62,522 nt of DNA from Bacteroidia bacterium (GTDB lineage Bacteria; Bacteroidota; Bacteroidia; DATLTG01). The position numbers and the translations under genes were made by a program. Positions 6,572 through 62,522 of the stretch are shown here, one piece after another. Every line of letters starts with the position of its first letter. The stretch's first letter is position 1. The notes beneath the pieces were generated by a model. The model was not told where the DNA came from and searched no databases. It saw only the letters and a program-made list of their open reading frames with translations. The DNA lies in NCBI GenBank assembly GCA_039924845.1, contig JBDTAC010000010.1, positions 1 through 62,522 of the forward strand, given 5' to 3'.

Positions 6572-7057
6572 TTAATTCTTATTACTGTGCTTAAATTTTT
6601 TTTCAAGTGCTTCTATATCCGCTTTATCTTGTGTTCTGCCTGTGCTTAATTTATTTTTTTTGAGATCTTCGTAATGAATATAACGAAGTGAAATACCTTG
6701 AATTTCTTTTGTCAATGCTCGTTTAGTACAATCTGAAAACTCAACTCCGTCAATAGAAGTTAGTACTTCAATCCTTACCGGTTCTCTTCCAAAACTAATA
6801 CCTGGCGAAGGATTTTGTTTGGTTGCATTTTGTAATAATTGTTCTTTATTTATTTGCGCAAGAGGTCCTCCAAAATCGCTCACTACTTTTAATAAACGGT
6901 CGGCATTTTCATCCGTTTTTTGTATCCAAATATCTAAATCTCCCGTATATCTTGGGTGTCCGTGAAGACCAACTGCATATCCTCCAACAACCATATACGC
7001 AACATTATGATGATTTAACAACTTAATAAAATCCCAAAAATCTTTGTTGATATTCAT
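6572..7057 (-). CDS. Nucleotidyltransferase-fold protein (MNT/AbiEii-like)
   Basis: A 161-residue protein with a minimal nucleotidyltransferase fold: MVVGGYAVGLHGHPRYTGDLD near residues 22-43 has the GG...DLD active-site pattern of the DNA polymerase beta superfamily. Such proteins occur as one half of two-gene modules, including MNT-HEPN and AbiE-type toxin-antitoxin pairs. The start overlaps the end of the upstream 71-residue gene by 4 bases (ATGA), typical of a co-translated pair. The two together interrupt sufC-sufD. A toxin-antitoxin or defence role is inference; the partner is not a HEPN protein as far as can be seen. Confidence 0.78.
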   Translation of the reverse strand: MNINKDFWDFIKLLNHHNVAYMVVGGYAVGLHGHPRYTGDLDIWIQKTDENADRLLKVVSDFGGPLAQINKEQLLQNATKQNPSPGISFGREPVRIEVLTSIDGVEFSDCTKRALTKEIQGISLRYIHYEDLKKNKLSTGRTQDKADIEALEKKFKHSNKN

Positions 7058-7269
7058 CTGTATTCGAAATAAGTTCTATCCATTTTAGGAGAAAGTTGGT
7101 TCATTTCTATCCACTGCGCACGTAAAAATTCTATGGCGTAATAGCGTTCTTCCACAGAGCGTTCTATCCAAAAAATACTTTCCATTTCCGCTTCTTCCGC
7201 AGAGGAAACATTTTTTACAATGGTTCTGTCCATCTTAAAAAAACTTGATATATCGAATTCTTCCGTCAT
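7054..7269 (-). CDS. Small acidic partner of the nucleotidyltransferase
   Basis: A 71-residue acidic protein with no signal peptide or membrane segment. SSAEEAEMESIFWIERSVEERYYAIEF... resembles short proteins (pattern W-x-x-x-S-x-x-E-R) that precede nucleotidyltransferase genes in Bacteroidota and Cyanobacteria. The ATGA overlap with the downstream gene indicates a two-gene unit. It starts 1 base after the sufC stop. It may be the antitoxin or substrate-binding half; this is inference from gene order. Confidence 0.65.
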   Translation of the reverse strand: MTEEFDISSFFKMDRTIVKNVSSAEEAEMESIFWIERSVEERYYAIEFLRAQWIEMNQLSPKMDRTYFEYR

Positions 7270-7270
7270 A

Positions 7271-8029
7271 TTATGCCATTAATTCGGCTTCTTTTTTTAT
7301 CCAATCGTATCCTTTTGCTTCTAATTCCAACGCTAATTCTTTGGTTCCAGATTTCACAATTTTCCCTTGATACAAAACGTGAACGAAATCTGGAATAATA
7401 TAATCTAAAAGCCTTTGATAATGCGTGATAACAACGGTTGCATTTTCTTTTGTCTTCAACATATTTACGCCATTTGCCACAATCCGCAAAGCGTCAATAT
7501 CAAGTCCACTGTCGGTTTCATCCAAAATAGAAAGTTTTGGATTCAACATTGCCATTTGAAAAATTTCGTTGCGTTTTTTTTCTCCTCCACTGAAACCTTC
7601 GTTTACCGAACGATTCGCCAATCCGCCTTGCAACTCCACCAAGGCTTGTTTCTCTTTCACCATTTTCAAAAAATCTTTTGCTTCGATAGGCGGTAACCCT
7701 TTGTAAGCACGAATTTCAGTAATAGCTGTTTTCAAAAAATTAATATTGCTCACACCCGGAATTTCTACTGGATATTGAAATGCGAGAAATAATCCTTCTG
7801 CAGCGCGTTCTTCAGGAGCAAGGTCTAAAATATTTTTGTCGTTAAAAAAAATTTCTCCAGCAGTAATTTCATATTCTGGTCTACCCGCTAACACATTTGC
7901 CAAGGTGCTTTTGCCAGAACCATTTGGTCCCATAATAGCGTGTATTTCACCTTTCTTTATCTCCAGATTAAATCCTTTGAGAATTTCTTTTCCGTCAATA
8001 CTTGCGTGTAAATTTTTTATGGATAACAT
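7271..8029 (-). CDS. sufC: SufC Fe-S assembly ATPase
   Basis: A 252-residue ABC-type ATPase without membrane domains. Walker A is [12 protein letters not shown] near residue 34, the signature is [17 protein letters not shown] near 144, and Walker B with the SufC-specific [13 protein letters not shown] near 171. SufC drives conformational change in the SufBCD scaffold during cluster assembly. It follows the four-helix-bundle gene by 18 bases and is followed directly by the small acidic gene. Confidence 0.96.
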
Positions 8030-36280: not shown

Positions 36281-37615
36281 TTGTACCACAATTTTTCCGT
36301 CAGAAATTATTTTTCCATCATCCGAAAAAATTTTGCAAAAATAAATTCCTTTTGCTTCAGCACTTAAATCAATTTGTGTTTGCGCTGAATTGAGCGTTTG
36401 AAAAATTATTTTTTCACCCAACACATTATAGACTTCTATATTTAGCTTTTGAAAATTATTTTTTTGAACGACATTAAAAATTCCGTTATTCGGATTTGGA
36501 AAAATATTAATTGAAGCATTTGAAAAAATATTTTCCGAAACACCTGTTGTTCCTGTTACTTCACGAATTCGCGCACCTGTGGCAATGTAAATATTGTAAG
36601 ATGCATCAACAGCAACACCCTGAATGGTATCAATTGCGGCATTAACCGCAGGTCCTCCATCGCCACTATAATTATTTATTCCATTTCCAGCAACAGTGGT
36701 AATAATCCCAGATGTATTTACTTCACGAATTCGAAAATTGCCCCAAACAGCTATATATATATTTCCAACTGCATCAACCGCTACTCCAGAAGAAAAATTT
36801 AATTCAGCTGCGGTTGCCACTCCACCATCTCCACTATAACCTTGGATTCCATTTCCGGCAATGGTCGTAATAATACCGCTTGTATTTACTTTTCGAATGC
36901 GTTGATTGCCTTCATCAGATATATATACATTTCCAGTTGCATCAACCGCTACTCCGTTAGGGTCATTTAATTCAGCTACGGTTGCCAATCCGCCATCTCC
37001 ACCATAACCAGAAGTTCCATTTCCAGCAATGGTCGTAATAGTTCCACTCGTATTTATTTTGCGTACACGATAATTGTTGCCATCAGATATAAATACATTT
37101 CCAGTTGCATCAACCGCAACTCCGTTAGGGTAATTTAATTCAGCTGCGGTTGCCGCTCCACCATCTCCACTATAACCTTGAATTCCATTTCCCGCAATGG
37201 TGGAAATAATTCCACTGCTATTTATTTTGCGAATGCAATTATTTTGCGTGTCGGCAATATATACATTACCTGCTACATCTACTGCTACTTCTTGGGGATA
37301 ACTCAATTGTGCTGCAGTTGCAACTCCTCCATCTCCACTATAACCAGCGGTTCCATTCCCAGCAATGGTGCTTATAATACCACTCGTATTTATTTTTCGA
37401 ATCCGATTATTGAATTGATCTACAATAAATACATTTCCACTGGCATCCACTGCTATTCCATAAGGAGAATTAAATTCTGCAGAAGTTGCAGCAAATCCGT
37501 CTCCACTAAAACCTTGAATTCCATTTCCCGCAATGGTGTTTATGATTTGTGCATTTCCTTTGTTAGCAAAAGCAAATAATGCAATTGCGATTGTAGAGAG
37601 TAGGATTTTTTTCAT
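36278..37615 (-). CDS. Secreted NHL-repeat protein with type IX secretion C-terminal domain
   Basis: A 445-residue protein with a signal peptide (ends KGNAQ). Six similar repeats of ~53 residues (I-x-T-I-A-G-N-G-x-x-G-Y-S-G-D-G-G, G-V-A-V-D-x-x-G-N-V-Y-I-x-D, RIRK-V/I-NTSG) form an NHL beta-propeller. The last ~80 residues (SINIFPNPNNGIFNV to GKIVVQ) are a type A T9SS sorting domain. It is likely a surface or released protein of unknown binding role. Palindrome copies at 36396-36416, 36448-36468 and near 36520 fall in the sorting domain. Confidence 0.93.
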   Translation of the reverse strand: MKKILLSTIAIALFAFANKGNAQIINTIAGNGIQGFSGDGFAATSAEFNSPYGIAVDASGNVFIVDQFNNRIRKINTSGIISTIAGNGTAGYSGDGGVATAAQLSYPQEVAVDVAGNVYIADTQNNCIRKINSSGIISTIAGNGIQGYSGDGGAATAAELNYPNGVAVDATGNVFISDGNNYRVRKINTSGTITTIAGNGTSGYGGDGGLATVAELNDPNGVAVDATGNVYISDEGNQRIRKVNTSGIITTIAGNGIQGYSGDGGVATAAELNFSSGVAVDAVGNIYIAVWGNFRIREVNTSGIITTVAGNGINNYSGDGGPAVNAAIDTIQGVAVDASYNIYIATGARIREVTGTTGVSENIFSNASINIFPNPNNGIFNVVQKNNFQKLNIEVYNVLGEKIIFQTLNSAQTQIDLSAEAKGIYFCKIFSDDGKIISDGKIVVQ

Positions 37616-56750: not shown

Positions 56751-59700
56751 ATGAGTGAACGAATTCTGAAAGCCTTAATGCAATTGTTCGCAATTATTGC
56801 GCGCGTGGATGGCATTACCAATAATGGGCGCGAGATTGTTCAGTCGTTTTTAAAACAACAACTCAATCAAGAATTGGTAGATCAATACTTGGTTATTTTT
56901 GATGGCTTTTTAGAAGTGCTTCATCAATCATCGAAAAAAAAAGACGGCAGCGAAAAACGTACTTCACTTAATTCCGTTAAAGTTTTACGAATTTGTACTC
57001 AGATAAATGCAGAATTAACGCAGAAACAAAAAATTGTTGTCCTCATCCGTTTGCTCGAATTTGTTAATTCGAATCAGGAAATCAGTCCGCAGGAATTAGA
57101 ATTTGTTTCTACCGTTTCGGAAACATTTAACATCGAAGAAGGTGAATTTAAACGCTGCATGAATTTTGTGAAAATGGGATTGGAAACAGTTCCTGATTCT
57201 GACAAAATTTTAATTATTGATCACACTAAAAATCCGTCTTTTCATCTTACAAAACATATTTTTTCGGAAACACTTTCTGGACAACTCAGAGTACTGAATA
57301 TTCCGAGTGTTAACATGTACGCGATTCGTTATTTCGGTGCAAGCGAATTGCACTTGAACGGACAATTAATGGTCGGCGATCGTATTTATATTCTCACGCA
57401 AGGCTCGTCGATACGCAGTTCCAAAGTACAACCAATTTATTACAGCGATATTATCAGTTCTTTTTTAAGCGATAAATCTAAATCCAAAATAACATTTATT
57501 GCCAAAAATATTGACTATAAATTTAAAGGTGGAAAAACAGGATTGCACAATATTAATATTGCAGAAGATTCCGGAAAATTAATTGGGATTATGGGTGGCA
57601 GCGGTGCTGGGAAATCTACCTTGTTAAATGTTTTAAACGGAAATGAAAAGCCTTCGAAAGGAGAAATTTTAATCAATGGAATAAATATTCATTCAAAAAT
57701 CTCCAATATCGAAGGTGTTATCGGACATGTTTCGCAAGATGATTTATTGATTGAAGAATTAACAGTTTTTCAAAATCTTTTTTACAATGCAAAACTTTGT
57801 TTCGGTAATTTAAATGATGCTGAAATTACAAAAATAGTACTCAATTTGCTTACCAACATTGGCTTGTACGAAACCAAAGATTTAAAAGTTGGAAGTCCGT
57901 TGGATAAAAAAATAAGTGGCGGACAACGTAAGCGACTCAATATTGCGCTGGAATTAATTCGCGAACCTTCGGTTCTTTTTGTAGATGAACCCACTTCTGG
58001 ATTGTCTTCCAGAGATTCTGAAAACATTATGGATTTGCTGAAAGAATTGGCGTTGAAAGGAAAATTAATTTTTGTGGTGATTCATCAGCCTTCTTCCGAA
58101 ATTTTTAAAATGTTTGATAAGTTAATGATTTTAGATGTGGGCGGACATCCGATTTATTATGGAAATCCAGTGGATGCGGTGATTTATTTTAAAACGATTG
58201 TGAATCACGTTAACTGTAATGAGAGCGAATGCGTGGTGTGCGGAAATGTCAATCCAGAACAAATTTTTAATATCATCGAAGCGAAAGTATTGGACGAATA
58301 TGGCAATTTAACATACAACCGAAAAATTTCTCCGCTCGAATGGAATGCGAAATACAAGAAAGAAATAGAACATAAAATTTCGGATGCCGATATGGAGCAC
58401 ACCGAAATTCCGAAAGGAATTTTTAAAATTCCGAACAAACTAAAACAGCTCAAAGTTTTTGTGGTACGCGATGTGCTTTCTAAATTAACAAATACGCAAT
58501 ACCTCGTAATTAATTTATTAGAATCTCCTTTGCTTGCCTTTATTCTCGCGTATTTAGTAAAATATTACAATACAGATGTGTCGAATAAAGCAGGTTATAT
58601 TTTCCGTGAAAACGAAAACATTCCGGCGTATTTATTTATGGCAGTAGTGGTAGCATTATTTATCGGTTTAACCGTAAGTGCGGAAGAAATTATTCGCGAT
58701 CGAAAAATCCAAAAAAGAGAATCGTTTTTGAATTTGAGTAAAGGCAGTTATTTGATTTCAAAAATTAGCATCATGTTTGTTTTGTCTGCGATACAAACAC
58801 TTTTATTTGTACTTGTTGGCAATACGATGTTGCACGTACATGGCATGCTGCTTGATTATTGGCTCGTACTTTTCAGTGCATCTTGTTTCGCGAATATGCT
58901 CGGGTTGAATATTTCGGCAAGTTTTAATTCGGCAGTAACCATTTATATTTTAATTCCGTTTTTAATTATTCCACAATTATTATTGAGCGGCGTGATTGTG
59001 AAATTTGATAAATTAAATCCAATTATTACGTCGCAAAATTCAGTTCCATTTGCCGGACAAATAATGACTTCTCGCTGGGCTTTTGAAGCGTTGGCGGTAG
59101 ATCAATTTAAAAACAACGACTACGAAAAACCCTTGTACAAGTACGATAAACTTATGAGTATTGCGAGTTTCAAAAAAGATTTTTTGATAAGCAATTTGAA
59201 TGGAAAATTAGATGTGTGTCAAAGTAATTTGAAAGACCCAGCAAGTGCAACTGTTGTGAAACAAAATTTAGCGGTATTGAAAAATGAAATTGCGAAAGAA
59301 ATGAATTACACAGTGGACATTAAATTTAATTATTTAGACAGTTTGAATTCTGCTTCGTTTACGCCACACATCGCTGAATTAACGCGTAATTATCTAAAAC
59401 AATTGTCGGATTATTACATCAAATTGTGGAATAGCGCAAGCGATCAACGCGATAATTTAATTACGAAATGGAACAGTACGCCGCAAGGAAAACAAGATTT
59501 TTTGAATTTAAAAAATGAAAATGAAAACGATAATCTTTCTGATTTAGTAACCAATAAAAACGATTTAAATAAAATTTTAGAAGAAAAAGGAATGCTGATA
59601 CAGCAAGCCGATCCCGTGTTTTTAGATCCTATTTATTCCAATTTTGGGAACGCACAATTCTTTGCACCCAGAAAAAAAATTCTTGGAAACTATTACGATA

Positions 59701-59840
59701 CCTATTGGGTAAATGTTTTGGTTATTTGGTTGATGTCGTTGTTGCTTACCGTTACTTTGTATTTTGATGTACTCCGAAAAATAATTGACGGAATAGGACT
59801 TCTTTCCGAAAAATTTTCACGCAAAAAATCAGCATTCTGA
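56751..59840 (+). CDS. ABCG-type half transporter with N-terminal helical domain
   Basis: A 1029-residue fused transporter. Residues ~1-130 are helical, TerB-like in pattern; ~150-240 a small beta domain (GASELHLNGQLMVGDRIYI). The ATPase spans ~245-480: GGSGAGKSTLLNVLNG, KISGGQRKRLNIALEL, VLFVDEPTSGLSSRD. A cysteine cluster follows (VNCNESECVVCGN). Helices lie at ~590-770, then a ~200-residue helical extracytoplasmic region and one last helix near 985. This is the ATPase-before-membrane order of eukaryotic ABCG proteins. The substrate is unknown. Confidence 0.88.
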   Translation: MSERILKALMQLFAIIARVDGITNNGREIVQSFLKQQLNQELVDQYLVIFDGFLEVLHQSSKKKDGSEKRTSLNSVKVLRICTQINAELTQKQKIVVLIRLLEFVNSNQEISPQELEFVSTVSETFNIEEGEFKRCMNFVKMGLETVPDSDKILIIDHTKNPSFHLTKHIFSETLSGQLRVLNIPSVNMYAIRYFGASELHLNGQLMVGDRIYILTQGSSIRSSKVQPIYYSDIISSFLSDKSKSKITFIAKNIDYKFKGGKTGLHNINIAEDSGKLIGIMGGSGAGKSTLLNVLNGNEKPSKGEILINGINIHSKISNIEGVIGHVSQDDLLIEELTVFQNLFYNAKLCFGNLNDAEITKIVLNLLTNIGLYETKDLKVGSPLDKKISGGQRKRLNIALELIREPSVLFVDEPTSGLSSRDSENIMDLLKELALKGKLIFVVIHQPSSEIFKMFDKLMILDVGGHPIYYGNPVDAVIYFKTIVNHVNCNESECVVCGNVNPEQIFNIIEAKVLDEYGNLTYNRKISPLEWNAKYKKEIEHKISDADMEHTEIPKGIFKIPNKLKQLKVFVVRDVLSKLTNTQYLVINLLESPLLAFILAYLVKYYNTDVSNKAGYIFRENENIPAYLFMAVVVALFIGLTVSAEEIIRDRKIQKRESFLNLSKGSYLISKISIMFVLSAIQTLLFVLVGNTMLHVHGMLLDYWLVLFSASCFANMLGLNISASFNSAVTIYILIPFLIIPQLLLSGVIVKFDKLNPIITSQNSVPFAGQIMTSRWAFEALAVDQFKNNDYEKPLYKYDKLMSIASFKKDFLISNLNGKLDVCQSNLKDPASATVVKQNLAVLKNEIAKEMNYTVDIKFNYLDSLNSASFTPHIAELTRNYLKQLSDYYIKLWNSASDQRDNLITKWNSTPQGKQDFLNLKNENENDNLSDLVTNKNDLNKILEEKGMLIQQADPVFLDPIYSNFGNAQFFAPRKKILGNYYDTYWVNVLVIWLMSLLLTVTLYFDVLRKIIDGIGLLSEKFSRKKSAF

Positions 59841-59882: not shown

Positions 59883-60539
59883 ATGAAAAATAATTCAAAA
59901 AAAACGATTCGAAAAATTATTTTTTTGACGCTACTTTTTACAAGCACGTTCACACCACTTTTTGCACAAGTTTTCCAGCACAAAAAATACGATCTTGTCG
60001 CAAAAAAAGATTCTGTTAATCTAAAAGAAACAATTGTCATCAACAATAAAATATTTAAAATTTATAACAACTGGCTTTCTGGCGGCGGCGGACAGGCATA
60101 CAACTCCGCGCTAACAAAATCACAATTTGTTTGGGGAGCAGATTATAATTTCCATATCCAAGCGCATTATTATCAATTGGGATTTCTCCTTGCTGGAGAT
60201 GCTTTCGGGAATTATAACAACACGCAATTACACATTTGTTATGGTGGTAGAAAAGAAAATGAAGTATTCAATTTGGCGTATTTTATCGGACCTTCTTACG
60301 CCATCATTTATCCTAAGGACAGCACGGGTTATAGCGTTAATTCCGTTTCTGCATTCGGGGTATTCGGAGAAGTACAAATGGTTCGGAAAATTTCGTACGA
60401 CACTGGTATTGGTGCGGATATTTTTGTGAATGTTAACAGCTACCAAACCATCGCAGGATTGCGAATTATCCTTTATTTTTCAGGCGCGTATCAAGGGCTG
60501 AAAAATAAATATGCCGATAAAGCTCCTACTATTTATTAA
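59883..60539 (+). CDS. Secreted protein of unknown function, possibly outer membrane
   Basis: A 218-residue protein with a signal peptide (ends PLFAQ). The mature part is beta-rich with aromatic strands (HIQAHYYQLGFLLAGDAFG, AGLRIILYFSGAY), compatible with a small outer-membrane barrel. No family was recognised. It starts 42 bases after the transporter, so it could share the message. A palindrome copy at 59907-59929 encodes RKIIFL in the signal peptide. Confidence 0.7.
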   Translation: MKNNSKKTIRKIIFLTLLFTSTFTPLFAQVFQHKKYDLVAKKDSVNLKETIVINNKIFKIYNNWLSGGGGQAYNSALTKSQFVWGADYNFHIQAHYYQLGFLLAGDAFGNYNNTQLHICYGGRKENEVFNLAYFIGPSYAIIYPKDSTGYSVNSVSAFGVFGEVQMVRKISYDTGIGADIFVNVNSYQTIAGLRIILYFSGAYQGLKNKYADKAPTIY

Positions 60540-60578: not shown

Positions 60579-60665
60579 CCGCTATTTTTTATTTCGATTG
60601 AGATGCCTAAAAATTAGACGATGTTAAAATAAATGCTAACTTGCATTAAATTTATTACCTCGTCC

Positions 60666-61004
60666 ATGAAAAAATTGAAAATCATCTTTCTTGTCGCTTT
60701 GTTTTTTACAGGATTAACAAGCTTCTCAGAAACGCACTCGGTTACAGGAAAACTCAGCAATCTGCGTCCCTTTAACGACGAATATCAGATAACTGTCGGA
60801 AACACATCCTTGGTTCTGATAAAAAATTTAAAAGACAAGACTAAAACAAGTTTTGAAATAAATTCGGAATACAAGGATATTCTTGTTGAAACGAATGGCA
60901 AGTATGAAATTAATCCAAAATATGTAAAAAAAGTATTTAAGATATCGTATTACATAAATGGAAAAGGATGGAAGTGCATTCAAAAAATAGTGCTATCAAA
61001 ATAA
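60666..61004 (+). CDS. Small secreted protein upstream of a lysozyme gene
   Basis: A 112-residue protein with a signal peptide (MKKLKIIFLVALFFTGLTSFS). The mature ~90 residues are beta-rich and charged (VTGKLSNLRPFNDEYQITVG) with one Cys (WKCIQK). No family was recognised. The stop is 2 bases before the ATG of the GH25 gene, so the two are co-transcribed. It may be a partner or inhibitor of the lysozyme; this is inference from position only. The frame opens 11 codons earlier, but ATG 60666 gives the better signal peptide. Confidence 0.65.
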   Translation: MKKLKIIFLVALFFTGLTSFSETHSVTGKLSNLRPFNDEYQITVGNTSLVLIKNLKDKTKTSFEINSEYKDILVETNGKYEINPKYVKKVFKISYYINGKGWKCIQKIVLSK

Positions 61005-61006
61005 TA

Positions 61007-62522
61007 ATGAAAAAACAAATACAATTTCTTATAGTAGTTGCACTTCTGAGTATAAACGTAAATGCTCAGACTATACTTGGCATTGATGTTTCTTCTTACC
61101 AAGGCACTGTCAATTGGACACAAGTAAAATCAGCAGGTATTACATTTGCTTACGCAAAAGCTTCTGAAGGAGTAAGTATCACAGATGCTTATTTTACGAG
61201 TAATCAGATAAATGGAACTTCGGCAGGAGTGGTAATGGGAGCCTATCATTTTGCGCGTCCAGAAGACAATACGGCAATTGCAGAGGCGAATCATTTTGTG
61301 AGTGTGGCAGGTCCTTATATTAAATCTTGTTATTTACCACCTGTTCTCGATTTAGAAGATCCTCCCAGCGGACCTGCTCTCGAAACTTTTTTCAGCAGTT
61401 CACAATTAACAGCTTGGGTTCAAGCTTGGATGAAAACCGTTTACGATTCGACAGGTATAGAGCCAATTCTCTATACCGATGGAAGTATTTCAGGATACCT
61501 AAATAATTCTTTAAATATCTACGGTCTTTGGATGGCTGACCCTGATGGCAATTCATCCACTCCTCCTGCTACTACTGGAGTATGGACTACATGGGATTTT
61601 AAACAATGGTCTTTTACTGGTACCGTTACAGGAGTTTCTGGTCAAGTGGACGAGGATGTTTTTAATGGTACTAATACTGCATTTAATGCTTTAACAGCTT
61701 GTGTTCCTTGCGTGCATGCCTATACACCCTTACCCTACTCCACTTCATTTGAAAGTGCATGGATAGCGGATCCATGCAGCGGAGGTGCTCAGCGCATCCC
61801 TGATAAATATTGGTCAAGCAGCGTAGGAGGCACTTCTCCAGATGGTGATGATTATTGGCACAGAAACGATTATACCGGTGTTGATTGGACTTCGCCTACT
61901 TTAGGGGTATATTCTCCTGCTGCATCTGCAGGTTCATACAGTGCACGGTTTCACAACGATCCGCCTCCGGCAGGCTCAAAAGGATTTTTCGATTTATATG
62001 TAAATCTTTCTGCGGCAGGCACTAAAGAAATTAAATTCGATTATATCCACAATGAATTATCAGCATCTCCTTTCGCCTTTGATGTGATGCTTTCTACAGA
62101 TGGAGGGAATACGTTTTCAACTACATTACTAAGTATTCCATCAAAAATTTCTGCTTGGACAACCCAAACGATTACTACAACAGCAATTTCAGCAACAAGT
62201 GTTATTCGTTTTGTTGTTACAGACAAAGGTGCTGCAGATGTTGGCATAGATAACCTTAGCGTAACAAATACGCCAACTGCCTCTTATACTACGACAAGCT
62301 CTCCAGTATGTAAAGGATCTTCGATTACTTATACAAGCACATCCTCTGGCGGACCAACGAGCTATAGTTGGGTATTTCAGAGTGGGACTCCTGGCACATC
62401 AAGCACTGCAAGTCAAGTTGTAACTTATAATACGGCAGGAACTTATACCGTTAGTTTAACAGCTACTAATTCGAATGGATCGAACACAACTACTTCAAGC
62501 ATTGTTGTGAATCCGACTCCAA
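61007..62522 (+). CDS. Secreted GH25 lysozyme with C-terminal beta domains (3' partial)
   Basis: An open frame of 505 codons that runs off the window. A signal peptide (ends VNAQ) is followed by a GH25 muramidase domain of ~200 residues: LGIDVSSYQGTVNW with the catalytic Asp, FAYAKASEG, GAYHFARPE, PPVLDLEDP (catalytic Asp-x-Glu) and the closing FKQWSFTGTV, GQVDEDVFNG. It cuts the glycan of peptidoglycan. A ~200-residue beta domain (FDLYVNLS, DNLSVTN) and the start of a PKD-like domain (PTSYSWVFQSGTPG) follow. These suggest a long T9SS-exported protein, but the sorting domain lies beyond the end. Confidence 0.9.
   Translation, partial: MKKQIQFLIVVALLSINVNAQTILGIDVSSYQGTVNWTQVKSAGITFAYAKASEGVSITDAYFTSNQINGTSAGVVMGAYHFARPEDNTAIAEANHFVSVAGPYIKSCYLPPVLDLEDPPSGPALETFFSSSQLTAWVQAWMKTVYDSTGIEPILYTDGSISGYLNNSLNIYGLWMADPDGNSSTPPATTGVWTTWDFKQWSFTGTVTGVSGQVDEDVFNGTNTAFNALTACVPCVHAYTPLPYSTSFESAWIADPCSGGAQRIPDKYWSSSVGGTSPDGDDYWHRNDYTGVDWTSPTLGVYSPAASAGSYSARFHNDPPPAGSKGFFDLYVNLSAAGTKEIKFDYIHNELSASPFAFDVMLSTDGGNTFSTTLLSIPSKISAWTTQTITTTAISATSVIRFVVTDKGAADVGIDNLSVTNTPTASYTTTSSPVCKGSSITYTSTSSGGPTSYSWVFQSGTPGTSSTASQVVTYNTAGTYTVSLTATNSNGSNTTTSSIVVNPTP

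Follow-up and report, generated by a model that had tools for sequence, protein, structure and literature searches.

A small exported protein encoded directly before a GH25 muramidase in Bacteroidia: a candidate partner for periplasmic self-protection

Introduction

How does a bacterium survive while a muramidase that it secretes in two steps waits in its own periplasm? This directly testable question is raised by the end of a 62,522-nucleotide stretch of DNA from a Bacteroidia bacterium, the whole of which is called the window here. There, a gene for a small exported protein lies immediately before a gene for a GH25 muramidase. T9SS is the export route of many Bacteroidota, and its substrates are reported to enter the periplasm via Sec before they are exported (PMC7073777). 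The logic of effectors and their immunity proteins is well worked out for T6SS; our literature search found little for T9SS. A preliminary description of the window proposed that the small protein is either a periplasmic inhibitor of the enzyme or a partner in its export. We retain both as hypotheses. The evidence leans toward an inhibitor, through the immunity-protein fold predicted for a lipoprotein that is encoded at the same position in sister lineages.

Results

The gene pair and its surroundings

The window is the entire contig C10 of an assembly of 101 contigs and 2.66 Mb. The small gene occupies positions 60666-61004 of the forward strand and encodes 112 residues. Its stop codon (61002-61004) is separated by two nucleotides (61005-61006) from the ATG of the GH25 gene at 61007, which confirms the earlier account of a secreted-type protein ending 2 bases before that gene. 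An alternative in-frame ATG at 60633 would give a protein of 123 residues; the start at 60666 is preferred because homologues align from the MKK encoded there. Inspection of the sequence and the alignment indicates a signal-peptide-like N-terminus in residues 1-21 (60666-60728; MKKLKIIFLVALFFTGLTSFS, followed by E), with a basic start, a hydrophobic core and no lipobox cysteine. Similar N-termini are seen by inspection in the complete copies of the protein, and no T9SS sorting tail is seen in them by eye. The copy in genome G323 carries a short extension rich in lysine and serine.

The GH25 gene runs on the same strand from 61007 to the contig end at 62522, with 505 residues visible and the 3’ end missing. 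Residues 26-210 (61082-61636) form the catalytic domain and match all of the Pfam profile PF01183 (positions 1-180 of 180, E 3.2e-36, score 125.7 bits, cut-off 27). Among solved sequences the nearest is 1jfx, the 1,4-beta-N-acetylmuramidase M1 (E 8.3e-36). D27 in the GIDVS motif (61085-61087) and D115 and E117 of the D-x-E in LDLE (61349-61357), which we take to be the catalytic residues, align with 1jfx and are conserved in 10/10 pair members. Judged by its sequence, the window enzyme is a GH25 muramidase with intact catalytic acids.

The visible part of the gene ends in a PKD domain (PF00801, residues 426-501, 62282-62509). The preliminary description spoke of PKD-like repeats; one such domain can be seen, and more than one is not visible in the 505 residues. 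The domain is nearly identical to the PKD modules that end contigs C58 and C13. The contig break lies inside the module, which matches the ends of those contigs over 214 nt at 93% identity, and the gene is left open at 62522 because C10 ends within this repeat. The module at 62273-62486 is common to the GH25 gene and two large proteins on C58 and C13 with BNR-like repeats (by eye), which suggests recent exchange of PKD modules. Contig C73 starts within a T9SS tail and was considered as the missing 3’ end. It was not assigned to the GH25 gene, because it shares no 19-mers with the last 220 bases of the window beyond the threshold of five, and because three genes break in the same PKD repeat and any of them could own it.

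Scans for promoters and terminators in the window found nothing beyond consensus matches. Just 5’ of the pair on the same strand, 59883-60539 encodes a protein of 218 residues that matches no Pfam family and, by eye, starts like a secreted protein with a signal peptide. Positions 56751-59840 encode a 1029-residue protein whose N-terminal TerB-like domain (24.7 bits, against 24.4 at the cut-off) is joined to an ABC ATPase and an ABC-2 membrane domain.

The small gene is consistently linked to GH25

The preliminary description had named, in advance, a lack of linkage in other genomes as one result that would refute the pairing. Sampling 395 genomes of the class gave eight with a match to the small protein at E 0.001, the genome of the window being counted among them. 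A nine-row profile search of three families (11, 12 and 87 genomes) added copies in G443 and G446. In a sample of 395 genomes from the phylum, the matches listed include the copy of the window and a partial one that spans 33 residues. All of these searches sampled larger groups, so copies may have been missed. Besides the window, ten copies were obtained. Nine are complete and come from eight genomes; the tenth (L076 in G446) is a good match whose ORF runs off its contig, and it was left out of the linkage count. Two of the MAGs encoding the protein are Nextera44_MAG5 and Nextera84_MAG7 (L035 and L040). Agreement of hit coordinates places the copies of G254, G233 and G147 probably in palsa_965, Nextera52_MAG2 and Nextera78_MAG5, respectively. 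The 60 relatives of the window genome belong to the same class only, none being from its genus, family or order.

A GH25 gene lies directly 3’ on the same strand in 9/9 complete other copies, so the proposed pairing was not refuted, and the small gene is the upstream partner in all ten testable pairs, the window included. The linkage greatly exceeds what chance would give. The matches listed for the genomes examined, which are samples, include no full copy that is unlinked. With GH25 start codons chosen by rule, the gaps in the ten pairs are, window first, 2, 12, 11, 20, -4, -4, -4, -4, -23 and -4 nt. Half of the ten have a 4-nt ATGA overlap. The two genes form one tightly spaced unit, probably with translational coupling. 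By eye, G147 has two such pairs in tandem, and in G233 the order GH25-small-GH25 is flanked by similar genes. Distances between small proteins correlate weakly with those between their GH25 partners (r 0.30; 348 of 10,000 permutations are as high, with shared ancestry not removed).

Nine weak matches (L006, L007, L069, L071, L077, L078, L079, L083 and L085) were left out. They have E values of 1.8e-4 to 8.1e-3, are partial and lie mostly inside long ORFs. No GH25 gene is present within about 1.5 kb either side of the first seven. No relative of the small protein was found in phage and plasmid records (tblastn, E 0.01), nor among 77 pattern-matching stretches from IMG/VR viral contigs.

The paired enzymes belong to a T9SS-type GH25 clade

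The preliminary description had looked to the missing downstream sequence for a T9SS domain. This domain cannot be read in the window copy because the gene is cut by the contig end. A T9SS type A sorting domain (TIGR04183) scores over its cut-off in 9/9 complete partner enzymes, and of its 70 matches at E 0.01 in the window’s own genome, 60 exceed the cut-off. These tails support the guess, and the GH25 of the window is itself probably exported by T9SS. Elsewhere in the window, a tail of this type over the cut-off is found at 36281-36505 on the minus strand, at the end of another ORF (open frame of 455 residues).

We constructed a tree of 49 GH25 domains, in which 42 of T9SS type are split from seven ordinary ones with support of 99/98. 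By eye, the tail is present at most complete C-termini of the T9SS-type clade. The ten paired enzymes fall inside a clade of 23 (99/96), alongside 13 that have no adjacent small gene. The label for the small gene requires at least four changes on this tree, three of them forced by well-supported branches, which implies repeated gain or loss of the gene.

In 20 of the 42 T9SS-type enzymes, neither the small protein nor the lipoprotein described below is encoded next to the GH25 gene; the known partners are thus dispensable for enzymes of this type. Downstream of 15 of these 20, the hairpin motif of the partners occurs in no listed ORF. Three close paralogues without a partner (L036, L037 and L038) come from genomes that also encode the small protein, which may provide protection in trans; the genome of a fourth (L039) does not encode it. 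About 40 nt downstream of the GH25 gene at L037, a 163-residue ORF (6886-7374) has a signal-peptide-like start and lacks the hairpin motif. It might be another kind of partner. Genome G014 has three GH25 paralogues of the clade (L094, L095 and L096), none with an adjacent small protein. In two Bacteroidales MAGs (L051, 1077-6793; L057, 3-4022), a GH25 ORF directly follows a large ORF with a T9SS-like tail, and at L051 the preceding ORF is a GH25 too.

The small protein is predicted to be OB-fold-like

Against Pfam and NCBIfam, the small protein stays below every cut-off. The sole weak Pfam match of the window protein is Ig_NOMO (E 0.13, under the cut-off), and two relatives have weak unrelated matches or none. 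The known lysozyme-inhibitor families Ivy, MliC, PliI and PliG show no sequence match to it in Pfam and NCBIfam. A search of PDB sequences with its profile gave neuropilins as the best match (E 0.036) over a 19-residue stretch, which was judged to be chance.

The mature protein was modeled from a three-row alignment as a small β-barrel-like fold (pLDDT 79, pTM 0.66). Structural matches to this model are mostly OB-folds of low significance. The best Foldseek E value is 0.022, with none at or below 0.001, and many OB-folds match at Z 5.6-6.6, where values under 8 may reflect merely a common arrangement. They include CusF (Z 6.3), TIMP-1 (Z 5.9) and an engineered OB-fold bound to hen lysozyme (Z 6.1). 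No fold of a natural lysozyme inhibitor is among the matches listed. Based on the model, the small protein is predicted to be OB-fold-like.

The nine-row alignment has 13 invariant columns, seven of which fall in the stretch N-G-K-G-W-x-C-I near the C-terminus. NGKGW (residues 98-102, 60957-60971) is present in 10/10 complete copies and forms the exact turn joining the last two strands of the model (model residues 77-81), placing it at the tip of a predicted hairpin. A disulfide through the one conserved cysteine of the protein was considered and rejected, since the ten partner GH25 domains have, by eye, no cysteine in common.

A lipoprotein with a predicted Tsi3-like fold takes the same position in sister lineages

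Directly 5’ of 12 related GH25 genes we found a different protein, of about 200 residues and with a lipoprotein-like start (by eye). These loci (L043, L044, L045, L048-L054, L056 and L062) come from MAGs labeled Flavobacteriales, Flavobacteriaceae, Bacteroidales, Saprospiraceae and Chitinophagales. The protein at L052, as translated, is missing the cysteine. Homology between the two partner families was rejected by profile comparison (hhalign probability 7.9). The 12 genomes hold a lipoprotein by construction, and only the lack of second full copies is informative: none was found in them, and the two extra matches (G817 and G818) are N-terminal stretches of 36 positions. The lipoprotein profile has no hit in 390 class genomes among the matches listed; that search was run without a positive control and has no bearing on the frequency of the family.

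The lipoprotein model (pLDDT 92, pTM 0.86) has among its best matches BT_1490 (Z 13.5), the T6SS immunity protein TplEi (Z 11.4, rmsd 3.4, 128 residues aligned), several PsbP proteins and the chains of Tsi3 (Z 9.9-10.0, rmsd 3.0-3.1, 112-113 aligned). It matches 3wa5_B in Foldseek with an E value of 1.2e-4. The model thus has a Tsi3-like Mog1/PsbP fold.

Both partner families have a motif with a basic residue at a predicted hairpin tip

In the lipoprotein model, a nearly invariant D/N-G-K-G lies exactly at a hairpin turn (DGKGH, residues 95-99). The motif [ND]G[KR]G is present in 10/10 small proteins and 11/12 lipoproteins, the twelfth having DIKG, against a background of two occurrences in 16,400 residues of window ORFs of 200 residues or more. 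Its placement at the hairpin tip is read from one model per partner family. Because an N-G or D-G turn is structurally favored at the tip of a hairpin, it is chiefly the lysine or arginine of the motif that argues for function.

The partners and enzymes also differ in charge. Mature small proteins have a pI of 8.5-9.6 (10/10) and their GH25 domains one of 4.05-4.87 (10/10); 10 of the 12 lipoproteins are above 8.5. In comparison, 28% of 36 window ORFs exceed 8.5. These opposite charges, calculated from sequence, fit with binding. Ordinary GH25 domains are not acidic (mean pI 7.54, n=14). Clade members without a partner are as acidic as the paired enzymes (mean pI 4.49, n=18), indicating that acidity is a trait of the clade and not of the paired enzymes.

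Discussion

A model for self-protection in the periplasm

On balance, we favor a model in which the pair consists of a T9SS-exported antibacterial or scavenging muramidase and a partner that protects the producer in the periplasm. Such self-protection may be of a kind not yet described. Both proteins would cross the inner membrane via Sec. The GH25 would probably fold in the periplasm beside the peptidoglycan of the producer before T9SS moves it out, and an active muramidase there would threaten the wall. The small protein would be translated first and, lacking a T9SS tail, would remain in the periplasm. We propose that this small, basic, OB-fold-like protein binds the acidic catalytic groove and holds the enzyme inactive, with the lysine of the invariant NGKGW hairpin pointing at the catalytic Asp and Glu. 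The enzyme would then be set free, active, outside the cell. In sister lineages, the unrelated Mog1/PsbP-fold lipoprotein would perform the equivalent job.

What speaks most strongly for inhibition, as opposed to other roles, is that an unrelated protein fills the same slot and is predicted to fold like a known muramidase immunity protein. It makes inhibition the most likely function of the small protein, followed by that of a chaperone. A more specific form of the model, in which two unrelated families, a soluble OB-fold-like protein and a Tsi3-like lipoprotein, came separately to serve one protection slot of a T9SS-delivered muramidase weapon and both block GH25 by inserting a Lys-tipped [ND]G[KR]G hairpin into the acidic groove, is put forward tentatively and is possible at best. 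Two unrelated folds with one hairpin tip would represent clean convergence on a single active site.

Other roles for the small protein

Instead of inhibiting the enzyme, the small protein could serve as its dedicated chaperone or pilot in the periplasm, keeping the multi-domain GH25 soluble or export-competent and delivering it to T9SS. The linkage, gene order and spacing would be expected to be the same, and a protein without a T9SS tail would likewise stay inside. The Mog1/PsbP fold also occurs in photosystem II and in T6SS chaperones, two of which, EagT6 (Z 9.8) and SciW (Z 8.9), match the lipoprotein model. However, Eag proteins work in the cytosol, where they bind transmembrane segments, of a kind that the GH25 does not have. 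The 60 T9SS tails over the cut-off in the genome of the window, against one small protein among the matches listed, indicate that tailed proteins generally do not need it, and close GH25 paralogues occur without an adjacent small gene. A chaperone is rather unlikely in our view, yet it is the most serious alternative to an inhibitor.

Another role would be to coat the peptidoglycan or outer envelope of the producer instead of binding the enzyme, in the manner of VisP/YgiW. VisP, a periplasmic OB-fold protein, is reported to bind peptidoglycan, possibly via NAM and NAG (PMC5636140). The basic, OB-fold-like model of the small protein would suit this role, and YgiW (1nnx; Z 5.8, rmsd 2.4, 63 aligned) is among its matches, tied with many unrelated OB-folds. 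However, no Pfam family scores over its cut-off, the BOF family of YgiW/VisP is absent even from the weak Pfam matches at E up to 1, and the strict pairing of one small protein with one GH25 points to a specific client, which makes coating improbable.

OB-folds often bind oligosaccharides, and the tight spacing of the genes suggests joint expression. The small protein might thus be released together with the enzyme as an accessory, for example for binding to substrate or surface, and work with it outside the cell. We regard this as quite improbable, given that complete copies have no T9SS tail (by eye) and no evident route across the outer membrane. Finally, it is highly improbable that the pair is a conserved operon without functional partnership, its first gene having an unrelated envelope role: all copies come from one class and may descend from one event, and the tree needs four changes of label, but adjacency persists at 36-71% identity of the small protein while the flanking genes differ in most loci (by eye), no full copy stands alone among the matches listed for the sampled genomes, and an unrelated exported protein takes the equivalent slot elsewhere.

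Significance

Should both partner families prove to block GH25, they would be the first inhibitors of these lysozymes to be found in nature, and also the first immunity proteins of a T9SS-sorted muramidase. Neither was found in our literature search, which left subscription papers mostly outside. GH25 includes phage endolysins and industrial muramidases, and a natural inhibitor would be a useful reagent.

Comparison with known systems

Ivy, MliC/PliC, PliI and PliG are small periplasmic proteins that block muramidases, and MliC has a conserved lysine near the catalytic acids of its target. They differ from the small protein in that none of these families matches it, their targets are the c-, i- and g-type lysozymes of hosts, and to our knowledge they are not encoded with a muramidase. 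BOF/YgiW-VisP and CusF share with it the architecture of a small periplasmic OB-fold, but no sequence match, and we know of no coupling of either to muramidase genes.

Among Bacteroidetes, the TANFOR toxins (BaCT/BaCTic) are reported to have adjacent immunity genes and have been proposed to be linked to T9SS; they differ in being described as DNases with the immunity gene downstream (PMC7073777). In a T6SS study, an effector linked to vgrG is reported to have a putative GH25 muramidase domain (PMC6971182). The pair PseM-PA0990 is similar in gene order, with a signal-peptide-bearing muramidase and its immunity gene upstream. It differs in the fold of the enzyme, in an immunity protein predicted to have a Nudix domain, and in being dependent on T6SS, as reported (PMC12494544).

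A further comparison is with Tsi3, the immunity protein of the T6SS muramidase Tse3 from Pseudomonas aeruginosa. Charged hairpins of Tsi3 are described as plugging the substrate groove of Tse3 and touching the catalytic Glu, and its authors noted its likeness to Mog1 and PsbP (PMC3792639). The enzymes belong to different families, GH25 and Tge, and T9SS export, as indicated by the tails of the relatives, replaces T6SS injection. Unlike Tsi3, the small protein of the window is predicted to be OB-fold-like. As in Tse3-Tsi3, we propose a muramidase with a dedicated neutralizing protein, and the lipoprotein of the sister lineages is predicted to have the fold of Tsi3 itself.
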